In this document: positions 38,558-45,462 of the stretch, piece by piece
Numbering within the stretch: the stretch's first letter is position 1
Layout: every line of letters begins with the position of its first letter
Origin: Paraconexibacter algicola
Lineage (GTDB): Bacteria; Actinomycetota; Thermoleophilia; Solirubrobacterales; Solirubrobacteraceae
Direction: 5' to 3'
Length of the DNA: 64,000 bases
NCBI RefSeq assembly: GCF_003044185.1
Contig: NZ_PYYB01000002.1
Location: 124,001-188,000, forward strand
Notes under the pieces: generated by a model
What the model was told of the DNA's origin: nothing
Seen by the model: the letters and a program-made list of their open reading frames with translations, nothing else
The model's database searches: none
Program-made: the position numbers and the translations under genes

Positions 38558-38585
38558 TTGCGCTGGGTGGGCGGGTCGTTAGAGT
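38558..38585 (+). promoter_or_regulatory. Promoter TTGCGC-16-TAGAGT of the liv operon
   Basis: A TTGCGC -35 and TAGAGT -10 spaced by 16 nt, the same layout as the promoter before the pantothenate operon. The leader is about 45 nt and carries GGAGG. Confidence 0.5.
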
Positions 38586-38626
38586 GCCCGGATCGCGCCC
38601 CGCTGGGGCGCCCGAATTCGATCGTT

Positions 38627-38631
38627 GGAGG
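38627..38631 (+). promoter_or_regulatory. Shine-Dalgarno GGAGG that sets the livH start
   Basis: GGAGG with a 5-nt spacer points to the GTG rather than an in-frame TTG four codons earlier. Confidence 0.55.
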
Positions 38632-38636
38632 CGCGT

Positions 38637-39932
38637 GTGCGCGCAAGCCCGGCGGTGCTCCTCGCGCTGCTCTTGACGTTCATCGCGGTCCAGGCCAGCC
38701 CTGCCGCAGCATCATCAGAGGACTCGATCGCCGTCACCGGCACGCTGCTGGACACCCGTTCGACACCGCCCAAGCCGGTGCCCAACGTCCAGCTGAGCGT
38801 CGACAGCGGCGGCCAGCAGATCGCGCAGACCCGCTCCGGCGCCGACGGCGCGTTCACGATGCCGCTGCCCGGCTCGGCCGACGACCTGCTCGGTGAGACC
38901 ATCACGGTCAAGCTCGACACCGCGACGCTGCCGTCCGGCACCGAGCTGACGGAGAAGAACAAGACCTCGTTCGAGATCGTCGTCAAGACGAACGCGGACA
39001 TCCCGATCAGCTACCGGATCGGCCCGGAGGCCCCCGCCGGCCCGTCCGGGCTGACGAAGGCCGCGCAGTCCTTCATCAACGGGATCTTCCTCGGGCTGCT
39101 GCTCGCGGTCACCGCGATCGGCCTGTCGCTCGTCTTCGGCACCACCGGCCTGACGAACTTCGCCCACGGCGAGCTCATCACGTTCGGCGCCCTGATGGCC
39201 TACTTCTTCCAGGACTCCTTCAGCTGGGCGTTCATCCCGGCGCTGCTCATCGCGGTGCTGCTGTCGGGGGTGTTCGGCTACGCCAACGACAAGGTGCTGT
39301 GGAAACCGCTGCGCGACCGCGGCACCGGGCTGATCGCGATGATGATCGTCAGCATCGGCCTCGCGATCTTCCTGCGCAACGTCTTCCAGTACCTGTTCGA
39401 CGCCGACAACCACCAGTACACCGACGTGCCGATCCCGCGCGAGCCGTGGCAGATCGGCTCGATCGACATCTCGCAGCGCACGTTCTGGACCGGCCTGATC
39501 TGCGTCGTCATCCTGCTCGCGGTCTCGCTCGCGGTGCAGCGCACGCGGCTGGGCAAGGCGACCCGCGCCGTCTCGGACAACCCGTCGCTGGCGGCCTCCT
39601 CGGGCATCGACGTCAACGGCGTCATCCGCACGATCTGGATCTTCGGCGGAGCGCTCGCCGGCCTCGGCGGCATCCTCTGGGGCATGAACTACGGCTTCGA
39701 CTACCAGGTCGGGTTCAAGATCCTGCTCGCCGTGTTCGCCGCCGTCACCCTCGGCGGCCTGGGCACCATCTGGGGGACGATGGTCGGCGCATTGATCATC
39801 GGCATCCTCACCGAGATGTCCACGCTCGTGATCGCGCCCGAGCTGAAGTACGTGACACCGCTCGTGGTGCTCATCCTGATGCTGTTGATCCGACCCCAGG
39901 GCCTGCTCGGCCGAGCCGAGCGCGTCGGCTAG
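38637..39932 (+). CDS. livH: Branched-chain amino-acid-type ABC permease (LivH) with an N-terminal extracytoplasmic domain
   Basis: A 431-residue permease. The last 295 residues or so are a standard LivH membrane domain (GLLLAVTAIGLSLVFGTTGLTNFAHGE and the later GFKILLAVFAAVTLGGLGTIWG). In front sits a signal-peptide-like stretch (5-25) and about 100 residues resembling a carboxypeptidase-regulatory-like, immunoglobulin-type fold (SIAVTGTLLD, then TRSGADGAFTMPLPG, then TFEIVVK-type strands). This would lie outside the membrane. UrtB-type permeases also carry N-terminal extensions. GTG start chosen from GGAGG 5 nt upstream. First gene of the liv operon. Confidence 0.9.
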   Translation: MRASPAVLLALLLTFIAVQASPAAASSEDSIAVTGTLLDTRSTPPKPVPNVQLSVDSGGQQIAQTRSGADGAFTMPLPGSADDLLGETITVKLDTATLPSGTELTEKNKTSFEIVVKTNADIPISYRIGPEAPAGPSGLTKAAQSFINGIFLGLLLAVTAIGLSLVFGTTGLTNFAHGELITFGALMAYFFQDSFSWAFIPALLIAVLLSGVFGYANDKVLWKPLRDRGTGLIAMMIVSIGLAIFLRNVFQYLFDADNHQYTDVPIPREPWQIGSIDISQRTFWTGLICVVILLAVSLAVQRTRLGKATRAVSDNPSLAASSGIDVNGVIRTIWIFGGALAGLGGILWGMNYGFDYQVGFKILLAVFAAVTLGGLGTIWGTMVGALIIGILTEMSTLVIAPELKYVTPLVVLILMLLIRPQGLLGRAERVG

Positions 39933-39947
39933 AAAGAGGAACGTGCG

Positions 39948-40943
39948 ATGAGCTGGATGGACGTCCTCTCCGGAGCGATCGAGCAGGCCCTCGGGCCGCA
40001 GGCGATCGTCTTCTGCCTGGCCGCGATCGGCCTGAACATCCACTTCGGATACACCGGCCTGCTGAACTTCGGTCAGGCGGCCTTCATGATGGTCGGCGGC
40101 TACGCCATGGCCTCGCTGGTGCAGACCTGGGGGTGGAACCTCTGGGTCAGCATCGTCGTCGGCCTGCTGCTGAGCATCGTGCTCGCGCTCGCGCTCGGCG
40201 TCCCGACGTTGCGGCTGCGCGCCGACTACCTCGCGATCGCCACGATCGCCGCGGCCGAGGCGATCAGACAGACGCTCGGCGCCTCGAGTCTCAACGACCA
40301 GTTCGGCGGGCAGGACGGCCGTTTCGGGTTCGCCGACTCGATGAAGGACATCAACCCGATCTCGAGCAACGTCGACATCTTCGGCTTCCTCGAGTTCCGC
40401 AACTACGACTTCTTCATCATGCTCGTCGGCTGGTCGCTGGTGGCCGTGCTGTGCGTGCTCGTGTTCCTGCTGATGCGCAGCCCCTGGGGCCGCGTGCTGA
40501 AGTCGATCCGCGAGGACGAGGACGCCGTGCGCAGCCTCGGCAAGAACGTCTTCGGCTTCAAGATGCAGGCGCTCGTGATCGGCGGCATGATCGGCGCGCT
40601 CGCCGGCATGATGAGCGGCCTGGCGACCGACAACGTCGCCCCGTCGGACTTCGCGACCGACACGACGTTCTTCACCTACACCGTGCTGCTGATCGGCGGC
40701 GCGGCACGCGTGCTCGGCCCGGTGGCCGGCGCCCTGATCTTCTGGTTCTTCCTCAACGGGCTGGACCTGTTCTTCGACAAGGCGACCGGACCGGACGGGT
40801 TCATCCCCGAGGCGATCATGTCGCCCGACCAGGCGAGCCTCATGCGCCTGATCGTCATGGGCCTGGTGCTGATGCTGTTGATGATCTTCCGCCCGCAGGG
40901 CATCTTCGGAGACCGAAAGGAGCTGGCGATCGATGGCCGCTGA
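39948..40943 (+). CDS. livM: Branched-chain amino-acid-type ABC permease (LivM)
   Basis: The second membrane subunit of the importer, 331 residues with eight or so helices. Family phrases are IGLNIHFGYTGLLNFGQAAFMMVGGYAMA near the start and the EAA-like cytoplasmic loop RSPWGRVLKSIREDEDAVRSLGKNVFGFKM, which docks on the ATPases. GAGGAA precedes the ATG after a 15-nt gap from livH. Its last 11 bp overlap livG. Confidence 0.95.
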   Translation: MSWMDVLSGAIEQALGPQAIVFCLAAIGLNIHFGYTGLLNFGQAAFMMVGGYAMASLVQTWGWNLWVSIVVGLLLSIVLALALGVPTLRLRADYLAIATIAAAEAIRQTLGASSLNDQFGGQDGRFGFADSMKDINPISSNVDIFGFLEFRNYDFFIMLVGWSLVAVLCVLVFLLMRSPWGRVLKSIREDEDAVRSLGKNVFGFKMQALVIGGMIGALAGMMSGLATDNVAPSDFATDTTFFTYTVLLIGGAARVLGPVAGALIFWFFLNGLDLFFDKATGPDGFIPEAIMSPDQASLMRLIVMGLVLMLLMIFRPQGIFGDRKELAIDGR

Positions 40944-41820
40944 GCCGACCGCCGAGAGGACCGACGCGATCCTCGTCGCGGACAACGTCAGCCGCACGTT
41001 CGGGGGCCTCGCGGCCGTCGACGTCGAGCACTTCGAGATCCAGCGGGGCAAGATCACCGCCCTCATCGGGCCCAACGGCGCGGGGAAGACGACGTTCTTC
41101 AACCTGCTCACCGGCTTCGACGAGCCCGACACCGGCACCTGGGCGTTCAACGGCCAGCAGCTCGCGGGCGTCCCGCCGCACAAGGTCGCCCGCCGGGGCA
41201 TGGTCCGGACGTTCCAGCTGACGAAGGTGCTGTCGCGCCTGACCGTCATCGAGAACATGCGCCTGGGCGCGACCGGGCAGCGCGGCGAGCGGCTGCTGCC
41301 GAGCCTCGTGAAGAGCCTGTGGTCCGGCGAGGAGGACGCGAACACCAAGCGCGCGGACGAGCTGCTCCAGCGGTTCAAGCTCGACGCCAAGCGCGAGGAC
41401 TTCGCCGGCTCGCTCTCGGGCGGGCAGCGCAAGCTGCTGGAGATGGCCCGCGCGCTGATGGTCGACCCGGAGCTGATCATGCTCGACGAGCCGATGGCGG
41501 GCGTGAACCCGGCGCTGAAGCAGTCGCTGCTCGGCCACGTGAAGTCGCTGCGCGACGAGGGCCGCACCGTCCTGTTCGTCGAGCACGACATGGACATGGT
41601 CCGGGACATCTCCGACTGGGTCGTCGTCATGGCGGCCGGGAAGATCGTCTCCGAGGGCCCGCCGGACACCGTGATGTCCGACCCGGCGGTCATCGACGCC
41701 TACCTCGGCGCGCACCACGACATGGACCTCGACGGCGAGGCCGAGGCGACGATCCTCGCCGACGCCGAGGCCGAACTCGAAGAGCAGATCGCCGAGCAGG
41801 AGAGCGAGAAGAGCGAATGA
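40933..41820 (+). CDS. livG: Branched-chain amino-acid-type ABC ATPase (LivG)
   Basis: A 295-residue ATP-binding subunit. It has Walker A GPNGAGKTT (46-54), the LivG-type MVRTFQLTKVLSRLTVIENM, signature LSGGQRKLLEMARALM, Walker B LIMLDEPMAGVNP and the H-loop VEHDMDMV. The acidic C-terminal 35 residues (EAEATILADAEAELEEQIAEQ) go beyond the usual LivG end and may form a helix. The gene overlaps livM by 11 bp and livF by 4 bp, so subunits are made in step. Confidence 0.96.
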   Translation: MAAEPTAERTDAILVADNVSRTFGGLAAVDVEHFEIQRGKITALIGPNGAGKTTFFNLLTGFDEPDTGTWAFNGQQLAGVPPHKVARRGMVRTFQLTKVLSRLTVIENMRLGATGQRGERLLPSLVKSLWSGEEDANTKRADELLQRFKLDAKREDFAGSLSGGQRKLLEMARALMVDPELIMLDEPMAGVNPALKQSLLGHVKSLRDEGRTVLFVEHDMDMVRDISDWVVVMAAGKIVSEGPPDTVMSDPAVIDAYLGAHHDMDLDGEAEATILADAEAELEEQIAEQESEKSE

Positions 41821-42569
41821 CCGTCGACGTCACCTCTCCCGAGGGCGCGCTGCTGCGCGCGGACAACCTCATCGCCGGCTACCTGCCGGGCGTGAACATC
41901 CTCAACGGTGCGAGCCTGCACTGCCACGAGGGCGAGCTCATCGGGATCATCGGTCCCAACGGCGCGGGCAAGTCCACGTTCCTGAAGGCGCTGTTCGGGC
42001 TCGTGAACATCCACGAGGGGACCGTCACCCTGCGCGGCGAGAGCATCACCGGGCTGCGCGCCGACAAGCTCGTCGCCGCGGGCGTCGGGTTCGTGCCGCA
42101 GACGAACAACGTCTTCCCGTCGCTGACGGTCGGCGAGAACCTCGAGATGGGCGTGTACCTCGACCCGTCGAAGTTCGAGCAGCAGTACGCGTACGTCAGC
42201 GAGATCTTCCCCCGCCTGGCCGAGCGGCGCGACCAGCGCGCCGGCTCGCTGTCCGGCGGCGAGCGCCAGATGGTCGCGATGGGCCGCGCGCTGATGATGA
42301 GCCCGTCGGTGCTGCTGCTGGACGAGCCGTCCGCCGGCCTCTCCCCCGCCCTGCAGGACGAGGTGTTCCTGCGCACGAAGACCATCAACGAGGCGGGCGT
42401 CTCGGTGATCATGGTCGAGCAGAACGCGCGCCGCTGCCTGCAGGTCTGCGATCGCGGCTACGTCCTGGACCAGGGCAAGGACGCCTACACGGCCAGCGGC
42501 CGCCAGCTCATGAACGACCCGAAGGTCATCGAGCTGTACCTCGGCACGCTCGCCAAGAGCGTCTCCTAG
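41817..42569 (+). CDS. livF: Branched-chain amino-acid-type ABC ATPase (LivF)
   Basis: A 250-residue ATP-binding subunit with Walker A GPNGAGKST (46-54), signature LSGGERQMVAMGRALM, Walker B VLLLDEPSAGLSP and the LivF end (IELYLG). It forms the ATPase pair with LivG. The ATG overlaps the livG stop (ATGA). It is the last gene of the operon; a strong hairpin follows. No binding-protein gene lies in the operon itself, but one converges on it. Confidence 0.96.
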   Translation: MTVDVTSPEGALLRADNLIAGYLPGVNILNGASLHCHEGELIGIIGPNGAGKSTFLKALFGLVNIHEGTVTLRGESITGLRADKLVAAGVGFVPQTNNVFPSLTVGENLEMGVYLDPSKFEQQYAYVSEIFPRLAERRDQRAGSLSGGERQMVAMGRALMMSPSVLLLDEPSAGLSPALQDEVFLRTKTINEAGVSVIMVEQNARRCLQVCDRGYVLDQGKDAYTASGRQLMNDPKVIELYLGTLAKSVS

Positions 42570-42663
42570 CCGCGCTCGCGGCCCCCGCTTCCCGCGCCCC
42601 GGCCCGCTCCCGCGGTCCGGGGCGCCGTCGCGTCCGGGGCCGGGAACGGGCCCGGGAACGGCC

Positions 42664-42688
42664 GAGGGCCCGGGAGACCCGGGCCCTC
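42664..42688. terminator. Perfect hairpin between livF and the convergent binding-protein gene
   Basis: An 11-bp perfect stem (GAGGGCCCGGG and its inverse) with a 3-nt AGA loop. Its place between two convergent stops suggests termination in both directions. Confidence 0.7.
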
Positions 42689-42713
42689 GTCCACTGCTGC
42701 GGGTGTCGCGTGA

Positions 42714-43991
42714 CTACTCGACGACGCCCGTGATGTACTCGAGGTTCTTGTAGTTGTTGTCGTCCTCGTACTCGAAGATGCCGATCGTGGCCTTCGAGGG
42801 CGAGCCGGTGTCGTTGAGGTCCACCGGGCCGGAGACACCGTCGTAGTCGATGTCCTTGCCGTCCGCGAGGAGCGCCTTGCAGGCCTCGAACGTCTCGCAC
42901 TTCTCGCCGTCACGCGAGATCGCGACGAGCTGCGACGCGATGCTCTTGCCCGAGTCGTCCTTGGCCGCCTCGGCCGCGAGCGCGGTCATGATCGTGGCGT
43001 CGTAGGACTCCGGCCCGTAGGTGAAGTCCTTGAGCTTCGGGTCGACCTCGAGCATGCGCTCCTTGAAGTCGTCCTTCAGCTCGGCGCCCGGGTAGGTGGC
43101 CTTGATGCCGGTCAGCGTGCCCTTGGGGAAGTCCTTGCCGTAGTCGGCGGTGTTGCCGTCGACGAAGTAGGTCTGGACGTCCTCCGGGCCGATGCCCGCG
43201 GACTCGAAGCCCGGGATGATCTTCGTGGTCTCGTTGAACGCGATCAGGACGATGGCGTCCGGCTTGGCGTCCTTGATCTTCTGGATCTCGGACGTGTACG
43301 ACGTCGCGTCGACGCTGTACAGGACCTTCGCGGCGACCTTGCCGCCCTGGTCGGTGATGGTCTTCTCGACGTTGTCGGCCAGCGCCTCGCCGTACGCCTC
43401 CTGGCGGGCCAGGATGGCGACGTTCTTGGCGCCGTCCTTCAGGACCAGGTTGCCGAGGACGTTGCCCTGGAGCACGTCGGACGGCGCGGTCCGGAAGTAG
43501 AGGCCCTTGTCGTCGTAGGTGTCGAACGCGGTCGACGTGTTGGCCGGCGAGAACTGCACGACGCCGGCGCTCGTGATCTTGTCGATGACCGACAGGGAGA
43601 CGCTGGAGCTCGCGGCGCCGATGATCGAGTCGGCCTTGCCCGCGAGGAGCTTGTCGACGGAGCCCGGAGCGATCTTCGGGGTGCCGTCGCCGGAGTCCGC
43701 CTTCACCTGCGTGACGTCCTTGCCGAGCACGCCACCAGCGGCGTTGATGTCCTTGACCGCGAGGTCCACGCCCGCGAACTCGGGCGGCCCGAGGAAGGCG
43801 AGGTCGCCGGTCGACGGGAGCAGCGTGCCGACGACGAGCTGACCGTCGCCCTTGCTGGTCTCCGCGGCCGCCGTCGAAGTCGTGCCGGTGCTCGCGGTCT
43901 CGCTCTCCTCGTCATCGCCACAGGCGGCGATTCCGAGTGCTCCCACGGCAAGGACGGCGGCGATGTTCGCCGTACGGAAACTGCGCTTCAT
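42714..43991 (-). CDS. Branched-chain amino-acid-type substrate-binding lipoprotein
   Basis: A 425-residue periplasmic-binding-type protein. It has a lipoprotein signal with lipobox LGIAAC (C24), a Thr/Ser/Glu-rich spacer and then a type I fold (VVGTLLPSTGDLAFLGPPEFAGVDLAVKDINAAGGVLG). Ligand-pocket stretches such as GAASSSVSLSVIDKI and RQEAYGEALAD fit LivJ-like proteins. It most likely feeds the livHMGF permease whose operon runs towards it. GGAGG lies 6 nt before the ATG. The 181-bp upstream gap holds its promoter, which I cannot place with confidence. Confidence 0.93.
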   Translation of the reverse strand: MKRSFRTANIAAVLAVGALGIAACGDDEESETASTGTTSTAAAETSKGDGQLVVGTLLPSTGDLAFLGPPEFAGVDLAVKDINAAGGVLGKDVTQVKADSGDGTPKIAPGSVDKLLAGKADSIIGAASSSVSLSVIDKITSAGVVQFSPANTSTAFDTYDDKGLYFRTAPSDVLQGNVLGNLVLKDGAKNVAILARQEAYGEALADNVEKTITDQGGKVAAKVLYSVDATSYTSEIQKIKDAKPDAIVLIAFNETTKIIPGFESAGIGPEDVQTYFVDGNTADYGKDFPKGTLTGIKATYPGAELKDDFKERMLEVDPKLKDFTYGPESYDATIMTALAAEAAKDDSGKSIASQLVAISRDGEKCETFEACKALLADGKDIDYDGVSGPVDLNDTGSPSKATIGIFEYEDDNNYKNLEYITGVVE

Positions 43992-44103
43992 AGATCCTCC
44001 GGATCGGAACGAATGGAGTGTCCGCGCCGGGACCCCGGCGAAGACGCCCGCAGTATCTTTGTTTCGCGGGTGTGAAGCAACCTCCCGCGGCGGCAGATCG
44101 GTC

Positions 44104-44123
44104 CACACCGGTTTGTACACCGT
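44104..44123. promoter_or_regulatory. Direct repeat ACACCG upstream of the binding-protein gene
   Basis: ACACCG occurs twice with a 13-nt period (CACACCGG then TACACCGT), upstream of the binding-protein gene. It may be an operator half-site pair; this is only a visual impression. Confidence 0.25.
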
Positions 44124-44172
44124 GACGGTCCCCGGTCCGCTTGTCCCGCGCGGGACGCGGCGACGTCCGATG

Positions 44173-45462
44173 TCAGTCGCCGGACGGCAGGACCGCGTCG
44201 ACGACGAGGCGCTCCCCGTCGAGGCGGCGGACCGCGAAGCGGTCGAGCGTCGTGTCGCCCGTGCGCGTGATCGAGTACGTCCCGAGCGCCGAACGGCGGT
44301 CGCGGACGTCGAGGATCGCGTCGATCACCGCCTGGCGGTCGTTGCCGCGCTCCCCGGCGGCCTCGATGCCCAGCAGGACGAGCTTCATCGCCTCGTAGCC
44401 GTAGATGGCGGCCGGGTCCGGCTCGCGCCCGTACCGCTCCCGGTAGGTACGCAGGAACGCCCGCCCGGAGGCCGGGAGGTTCTCCGCGTCGAGCTCGGGG
44501 CTCGTCAGCACCAGCCGCTGCGCGACCGCGCCGAGCCGCGCGACGACCTCGGCCTGCGGCGCCCCGGTGGCGAACAGGCGCACCGACGGCGCGCGGGTGC
44601 CGAGCACGCGCAGCAGCGCGACCGCCCGGCGGTCGACCTCGCCGCCGTAGAACAGGCAGTCGGCCCCGGACTCGAGCAGGCGCTCGGCCTCGTCGTCGGC
44701 GACGTCGCGGTCGAGGTCGACGTCCTCGGTCTTCGCGATCTTCAGCTCCTGCCGCGGCGCGGCGAGCGTGACCGCGTCGGCGATGCCGCGGCCGTCGAGC
44801 GAGCGGTCGTGCAGCACGAACAGGGACGTGCACTCGCGCTCGGCCAGCAGGCCCGCGGCGGCGTCGGCGTGGGCGGCGTCGTCGGGCACGACGCGCGCGA
44901 ACGTGCGACGCCCCGACGGGTAGTACTTGTCGGGCTCGCCCTTGGCGGCGCCGTCGGCCTGCGTGAGGCCGGTGTAGCTCGCCAGCGGCGAGACCTGCGG
45001 GACCGTCGCCTGGTTGAGGACCGGGATCGAGACCGCGGAGGACGCCCCGTCGAGGCCGCCGAGGAAGGCGATCGCGGTCTTGTCGCGGGCGGCGGTCTGC
45101 GCGTTGGCGATGACCTTCTCCGGGTCGGAGCCCGGGCCGTCGGTGGAGCCGTCGTCGGTGCCCACGTACTTGACGGTGAAGCCGCCGACCCGCCCGCCGG
45201 CCTCGAGCAGCGCGAGCTTCTCGCCGCGGCTGACGGAGGCGGCGCGCTCGCCGGCCTCACCGGTCAGCGGCAGGCTCGAGTAGACGGTGAGGCTGTCGGA
45301 ACCGGTCGAGGTGCCACGGTTGGGCTCGTCGTCGGAGCCGCCGCAGGCGACGAGCCCGACGGCCCCGGCGCCCACCGCGAGCACGGCGAGGGTCCGCCGG
45401 AGCACCGACGGACGCTCGCGACCGGCCGAAAGGCCGGGGCGCGGGGACGCTTCGGACGGCAC
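44173..45462 (-). CDS. Second type I substrate-binding lipoprotein
   Basis: A 429-residue ABC-type binding protein, unlike the first in detail. Lipobox LVAC with C40, then a Ser/Thr/Asp spacer and a type I fold (LTVYSSLPLTGEAGERAASVSRGEKLALLEAGGRVGG region). Later parts fit the amino-acid-binding group: AIYGYEAMKLVLLGIEAAG and a final DRFAVRRLDG. The annotated GTG gives 19 extra residues before the signal peptide; a GTG at codon 20 would put the signal at the very start. It lies 19 nt after a 54-residue membrane protein gene. Ligand unknown. Confidence 0.87.
   Translation of the reverse strand: MPSEASPRPGLSAGRERPSVLRRTLAVLAVGAGAVGLVACGGSDDEPNRGTSTGSDSLTVYSSLPLTGEAGERAASVSRGEKLALLEAGGRVGGFTVKYVGTDDGSTDGPGSDPEKVIANAQTAARDKTAIAFLGGLDGASSAVSIPVLNQATVPQVSPLASYTGLTQADGAAKGEPDKYYPSGRRTFARVVPDDAAHADAAAGLLAERECTSLFVLHDRSLDGRGIADAVTLAAPRQELKIAKTEDVDLDRDVADDEAERLLESGADCLFYGGEVDRRAVALLRVLGTRAPSVRLFATGAPQAEVVARLGAVAQRLVLTSPELDAENLPASGRAFLRTYRERYGREPDPAAIYGYEAMKLVLLGIEAAGERGNDRQAVIDAILDVRDRRSALGTYSITRTGDTTLDRFAVRRLDGERLVVDAVLPSGD

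Follow-up and report, generated by a model that had tools for sequence, protein, structure and literature searches.

Why would an importer permease carry a folded domain ahead of its membrane helices, and is such a domain really part of the protein, exported, and of use to the transporter? These questions are raised by an open reading frame at 38637–39932 (+) of a 64,000-nucleotide stretch of the Paraconexibacter algicola genome (contig NZ_PYYB01000002.1, positions 124,001 to 188,000 of the forward strand; the window), which encodes a 431-residue LivH-type permease composed of a signal peptide, a beta domain of ~100 residues and a PF02653 core. This frame, its coordinates and its architecture had been proposed in an original prediction made from the letters of the DNA, and were borne out by our reading and by Pfam. 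On the sequence features described below, this LivH-type permease very probably has its N-terminus carried out of the cell by a signal peptide and displays a prealbumin-like domain at its outer surface. Among the papers listed in searches of the open-access literature, we found no description of a beta domain fused to a LivH permease. An accessory domain of this kind, conserved on the outer side of an importer subunit that is itself widespread, would show whether such importers handle their lipoprotein with permease-borne domains, and it bears on N-out topology across the whole LivH/UrtB group.

Coding evidence and the liv cassette

Translation is assigned to a GTG at 38637, which stands 5 nt downstream of a GGAGG ribosome-binding site (38627–38631, +), and upstream the reading frame is open back to a stop at 38580. 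The TTG at 38625, also in frame, overlaps the ribosome-binding site, and by eye no comparable site precedes the alternative in-frame starts of the extension itself, namely the GTG codons of residues 7 and 48, the TTG of 13 and the ATG of 75. At the three codon positions, G+C amounts to 0.59/0.50/0.96 for the beta domain and 0.60/0.42/0.98 for the permease core; upstream in the same frame it is 0.73/0.76/0.70. Compared with a relative on a scanned contig (L063), 57 of 105 residues of the beta domain are identical, and silent codon changes occur at 23 of those 57. Because its codon-position G+C is like that of the core and its codons have changed silently relative to L063, the extension appears to be coding; and since the window protein and 30 relatives align there and 57 of the 59 places in the clade defined below carry the domain, it would be more than a chance frame. 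By these measures the extension is a real coding part of the LivH-type protein rather than a chance start. A wrong start was rejected on the codon-position bias, the silent changes, the ribosome-binding site and conservation; translation beginning directly ahead of helix 1 of the permease, which the original prediction had named as the finding that would overturn it, is contradicted by the conservation and codon evidence.

The permease core occupies residues 146–416 (39072–39884, +; Pfam E 1.2e-42) and exceeds the gathering score of PF02653 (BPD_transp_2) with 146.4 bits versus 26.8. It misses the cut-offs of the LivH equivalog NF008011 (126.1 bits versus 379) and of the UrtB equivalog TIGR03409 (142.7 versus 250.3), and "LivH-type" is thus a name by likeness only. 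For naming a substrate, no NCBIfam equivalog cut-off was reached for LivH, and the best NCBIfam equivalog of LivK1, PRK15404, gave 79.8 versus a cut-off of 477. With LivH/BPD_transp_2 permeases such as the E. coli LivH equivalog, the system shares the core family, the livHMGF gene order and a LivK-type binding protein, whereas the window protein adds the signal peptide and the exported domain of ~100 residues.

The permease gene is followed by those of LivM (39948–40943, +; PF02653 E 4.3e-52), the ATPase LivG (40933–41820, +; profile matches) and the ATPase LivF (41817–42569, +; start chosen at the ATGA overlap with livG), and by a convergent gene for the binding lipoprotein LivK1 (42714–43991, −; lipobox LGIAAC by eye). 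The order livH-livM-livG-livF was found in 20 of 20 contexts (L065–L084). Of the 19 contexts from the clade, 17, among them that of the domain-less G266, have a convergent LivK gene beyond livF (at a distance of ~2 kb in L068 and L073); in L078 and L083 none was found. At ~8200–9900 of L082, LivM has a large, by eye repeat-like insertion that separates two conserved parts.

Signal peptide and membrane topology

The predicted signal peptide comprises residues 1–25 (38637–38711, +), with A-A-A at 23–25 as the predicted cleavage site. Across 39 clade rows (the window protein, L034–L063, L074–L080 and L083), 35 have A-x-A close to where the hydrophobic stretch ends, compared to 4 of 39 for core helix 1 as a control, and Lys or Arg precedes the hydrophobic stretch in 38 of 39; these counts come from a simple rule of our own applied to stop-to-stop frames, not from SignalP, with a 22-residue search stretch that begins inside the hydrophobic stretch, and some n-regions may include untranslated residues. 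In some relatives the assigned start falls after part of the hydrophobic stretch. Under this rule the clade has the features of Sec signal peptides (basic n-region, hydrophobic core and A-x-A), consistent with the signal-peptide-like stretch first noticed in the window protein.

With loop limits set by hand, the mean number of Lys and Arg residues is 4.3 in loop 216–231, 5.4 in loop 301–329 and 3.4 in the C-terminus, the most positive parts of the core, while loop 248–283, assigned to the outer side, averages 3.0. Since these two loops and the C-terminus have the most Lys and Arg, they are probably cytoplasmic, and counting back from them over three helices would run helix 1 from outside to inside, which requires that helices 2 and 3 be separate. 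A hydropathy window of 11 gives nine main peaks and keeps helices 2 and 3 apart (183–192 and 198–212), whereas with windows of 15 and 19 they fuse, and a count of one helix would place the N-terminus inside. In one paper (PMC3098086), UrtB is described without the N-terminal helix of the crystallised permeases, from which we infer an N-out arrangement there as well. The full-length AlphaFold model (three sequences) has a pLDDT of 47 and an unusable permease part. Taken together, the charge pattern and the signal-peptide features make it probable that the N-terminus and beta domain lie outside the cell, in line with the placement originally proposed.

It is very improbable that the extension is a wrong start, or that the hydrophobic N-terminus stays uncleaved as an anchor, which would leave the domain on the cytoplasmic side. 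Helix parity, which the hydropathy count alone does not settle, leaves some room for this account, but an N-terminal signal sequence would take the part that follows it outside, and the first half of the account is opposed by the codon-position bias, silent changes, ribosome-binding site and conservation already given.

Fold of the beta domain

The domain spans residues 30–131 (38724–39029, +), as delimited by alignment, profiles and a fold model, and is joined to the first permease helix by a linker at residues 132–146 (39030–39074, +; alignment and hydropathy). Pfam gave a sub-threshold CarboxypepD_reg match at residues 33–78 of the window protein (E 0.0076); the gathering score of this family (PF13620), 32.3, was not reached by the window protein (17.0 bits) or by the domain alone (20.5 bits). 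In an alignment of the window domain and those of 30 relatives (31 sequences), a weak CarboxypepD_reg match at E <= 0.01 was found in all 31, SdrD_B was matched in 20 and SpaA in 16, and the bacterial immunoglobulin model Big_6 was matched weakly in 14. The consensus of the aligned domains contains GVxIxV...TDxxGxWxxxLPGPGxYxVTLDxxTLPxG; across the alignment, only G, P, Y and L columns are invariant or nearly so. The domain changes faster than the core, with a mean pairwise identity of 38% versus 57% over the 31 sequences.

Searched against the PDB, the profile of the 31 domains matched SdrD (E 6.5e-11), NOMO2 (8.7e-11) and a collagen-adhesion protein (4.3e-7). The isolated domain, for which the original prediction had suggested structure prediction, was modelled from two sequences as a beta sandwich of 7 strands with a pLDDT of 82 and a pTM of 0.72. 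The best 50 VIA-align matches of this model had Z scores of 9.7 to 10.9, with SdrD, TIE and transthyretin-type proteins on top (2g2n_A: Z 10.6, rmsd 2.5, 96 aligned). Foldseek returned 20 matches at E <= 0.001, a transhydroxylase subunit first and TIE, pilins, CnaB2, hydroxyisourate hydrolase, transthyretin and one lipoxygenase among them; 3qva_C matched with E 1e-4 and TM 0.62/0.66. The best 50 matches of each program were mostly prealbumin-like, and immunoglobulin structures were not noticed among the matches listed. With SdrD-B, TIE and transthyretin folds leading the PDB matches, the modelled fold is prealbumin-like (transthyretin/CnaB/carboxypeptidase-regulatory) rather than strictly immunoglobulin-like, even if some members resemble bacterial immunoglobulin models weakly. 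Of the two descriptions offered originally, the carboxypeptidase-regulatory type stands, and the wording "immunoglobulin-like" fits less well, the top matches being CnaB/SdrD-B and transthyretin folds.

CnaB and SdrD-B domains form the stalks of wall proteins, and in CnaB isopeptide domains a conserved Lys makes a Lys-Asn/Asp bond. The presence of SdrD-B, TIE, pilin and CnaB domains among the top profile and fold matches raises a further reading, namely that the transporter is anchored through binding of the domain to the cell wall or to some other partner at the surface. However, no invariant or nearly invariant Lys that could serve such a bond was found in the 31 sequences, and one domain on a short linker would make a poor stalk; we regard wall anchoring as improbable. 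Compared with CarboxypepD_reg, SdrD-B, CnaB and transthyretin domains in general, the window domain shares the fold and a weak profile similarity, but it is a single copy fused to a permease and has no conserved isopeptide Lys.

Distribution of the extension among relatives

The original prediction had also suggested a survey of LivH homologues for the same extension. Of 396 genomes of the phylum, 69 had matches at E <= 1e-40 (73 rows in all), and the 59 best rows (E <= 9.7e-65) were defined as the clade of interest. The domain is carried at 57 of these 59 places (54 genomes, the window's included), at two of them only partly, at contig ends; the exceptions are G266, which is without it, and G212, which is cut at the contig start and was unread. 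The other 14 rows score <= 189.5 bits, a gap between the groups that is partly circular, domain-bearing sequences having served to build the core profile (L075–L080, L083, L087 and L090–L109 were outside it). At the loci read in five of the genomes behind these lower-scoring rows (G007, G009, G031, G041 and G483), the domain is absent. These counts suggest that a signal peptide and beta domain on a LivH-type permease is an arrangement widely kept in many actinobacteria; Nonomuraea gerenzanensis (NZ_LT559118.1) is one carrier. On one contig (G445:C6; L035 and L100), two domain-bearing LivH copies lie ~2.5 kb apart on opposite strands.

In a core tree of 70 rows (38 domain-bearing, 31 domain-less ones including L074, and a Pantoea UrtB; the repeat copies L001, L002, L004, L065–L073, L081 and L082, as well as L003, L085, L087 and L088 onwards, were omitted), the 38 domain-bearing rows and the G266 row stand behind one branch with 99/100 support and a long stem. 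The domain label needs two changes on this tree because L074, which has no firm position inside the clade, is without the domain; the domain-bearing rows form one side of a branch in 4% of 200 bootstrap trees.

Within the host's class, the N-domain profile matched 48 of 399 genomes (47 besides its own; best E 4.6e-12). At the 19 class loci read (L111–L129) there was no LivH-core match above 100 bits, and of the 20 loci including the window's, only the latter has a LivH core. Among the matches listed for other genomes of the class in a separate search, none was both stop-free and full-length, those starting at residues 76 and 92 containing stops. A scan of genome contigs gave one close relative (L063, 65% identical) and one weak match (L064, unused), and no relatives were confirmed on viral contigs. 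The L063 contig, binned as an Aeromicrobium MAG, holds the closest relative found, the next being 46–49% identical, and its position could result from misbinning or transfer.

The G266 permease has the signal peptide and then reaches the permease within ~20 residues, the domain being absent, and the whole liv cassette is kept. In G615, where the reading covered LivH alone, this protein is 98% identical to that of G266 and likewise has a signal peptide and no domain. As read from these two genes, the G266/G615 lineage is a natural deletion in which the export signal was retained and the domain lost, so that a natural experiment is at hand in the form of a homologue with the signal peptide and without the domain. 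The idea that the whole G266 family had lost the domain was dropped, as just 2 of the 121 family genomes have the gene at E <= 1e-60.

Likely replacement of the native cassette between FtsH and trpA

The window cassette lies in the order FtsH, livHMGF with LivK1, LivK2 (44173–45462, −) and trpA (trp gene names by reading). Five other genomes of the genus in our sample gave no N-domain match, and the region beside FtsH was read in four of them. Two (G824 and G746) have a different, collinear livK-livK-livH-livM-livG-livF cassette in the gap between FtsH and trpA, whose LivH is 26–28% identical to the window LivH and lacks the N-domain; the gap in G077 holds one LivK2 relative only, and in G842 the contig ends in a LivK2 relative. 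LivK1 shares 37–61% identity with clade LivK proteins, with 86% over 44 residues for that of L063, and 27–28%, over parts, with two native LivK proteins, whereas LivK2 is 35–45% identical to native LivK and matches nothing in the clade loci. G+C is 66–70% in the five cassette genes and 70–79% in the seven neighbours measured. In the core tree, the row of the window protein sits inside a group of clade rows that stem from outside the host's class. Within 38637–45462 of the window, the livHMGF-livK1 cassette thus looks like a horizontally acquired replacement of the native livKKHMGF cassette, a probable xenologous exchange affecting an entire transporter, and LivK2, from the comparison with same-genus loci, is a probable relic of the latter. 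The native LivH of two same-genus genomes (L138, 4873–5823; L140, 13635–14585) has an N-terminal hydrophobic stretch, perhaps a signal anchor, with ~30 more residues between it and the core helix.

Possible roles of the exported domain

The explanation that we prefer for the whole, at a probability of about 0.42, is an exported accessory domain over the mouth of LivH/LivM that helps to receive LivK or shields the gate. The Sec machinery would recognise and presumably cleave the signal peptide, which would fix the N-out start required by the permease core. The domain would fold outside on a tether of ~15 residues to helix 1, probably positioned over the LivH/LivM pore mouth, and there it might receive and orient the LivK lipoprotein, a contact that is a guess on our part, or shield the outer gate in the manner of MalF P2. 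This explanation is favoured by the clade-wide signal-peptide features, by retention of the domain at 57 of 59 places and by the convergent LivK in 17 of 19 contexts.

The last step, a role in receiving LivK or shielding the outer gate like the P2 region of MalF, is argued from analogy and is tentative. In a mirror-tree analysis of 17 loci, N-domain and LivK distances did not go together (partial r −0.11, one-sided p 0.80), while core and LivK distances did (0.24, p 0.019); with five one-sided pair tests on 17 loci and a short, saturated domain, these values weigh little either way. Against docking stand the fast evolution of the domain, the lack of tracking with LivK and the cassette of G266, intact without the domain. 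The docking of a binding lipoprotein, which the original prediction had placed at this site, thus drew no support from the mirror-tree or from G266.

The same observations fit an account in which the signal peptide is the working part, forcing helix 1 into its N-out orientation, and the domain is a partnerless passenger serving to stabilise the N-terminus or to shield it from proteolysis. G266, with its signal peptide and cassette, and the LivH of G615 are both domain-less; the domain evolves fast and does not follow LivK; and the native LivH of two genomes of the genus has an N-terminal hydrophobic stretch and no such domain. Retention at 57 of 59 places over many families, however, suggests a selected role for the domain itself. 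We consider a passenger domain somewhat doubtful, yet this topogenic or stabilising role is nearly as likely as docking or gating.

The preferred accessory role has a counterpart in MalF P2, where an importer permease likewise has a folded region exposed on its outer side; P2 contacts MalE (PMC3150292). MalF differs in belonging to a type-I importer, in carrying the region as a loop insertion and in its known MalE contact, whereas a contact of the LivH domain is only guessed. The UrtB of Pantoea piersonii (L086) also has a signal-peptide-like start, an exported domain and then the PF02653 core, but its extension consists of HEAT repeats (HEAT_2 E 1.9e-8) rather than a beta sandwich, and no HEAT match was among those listed for the window protein at E <= 1. 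The expectation that the fold would differ from UrtB-type extensions thus holds for the one such extension examined, the second UrtB examined, from Roseibium, having none. A broader generalisation, that LivH/UrtB-type importers repeatedly gain exported N-terminal docking or gating domains for their binding protein as a counterpart of MalF P2, seems unlikely at present.

A related arrangement was seen in two type-I permeases of the host's class (BPD_transp_1; L124:742–2106 and L127:763–2106), where an SdrD_B/CarboxypepD_reg domain lies in a long inter-helix loop, probably outside. With this similar domain in L124 and L127, importers may have recruited such domains more than once. The number of such permeases is at least two; the class N-domain search lists further open frames of similar length.
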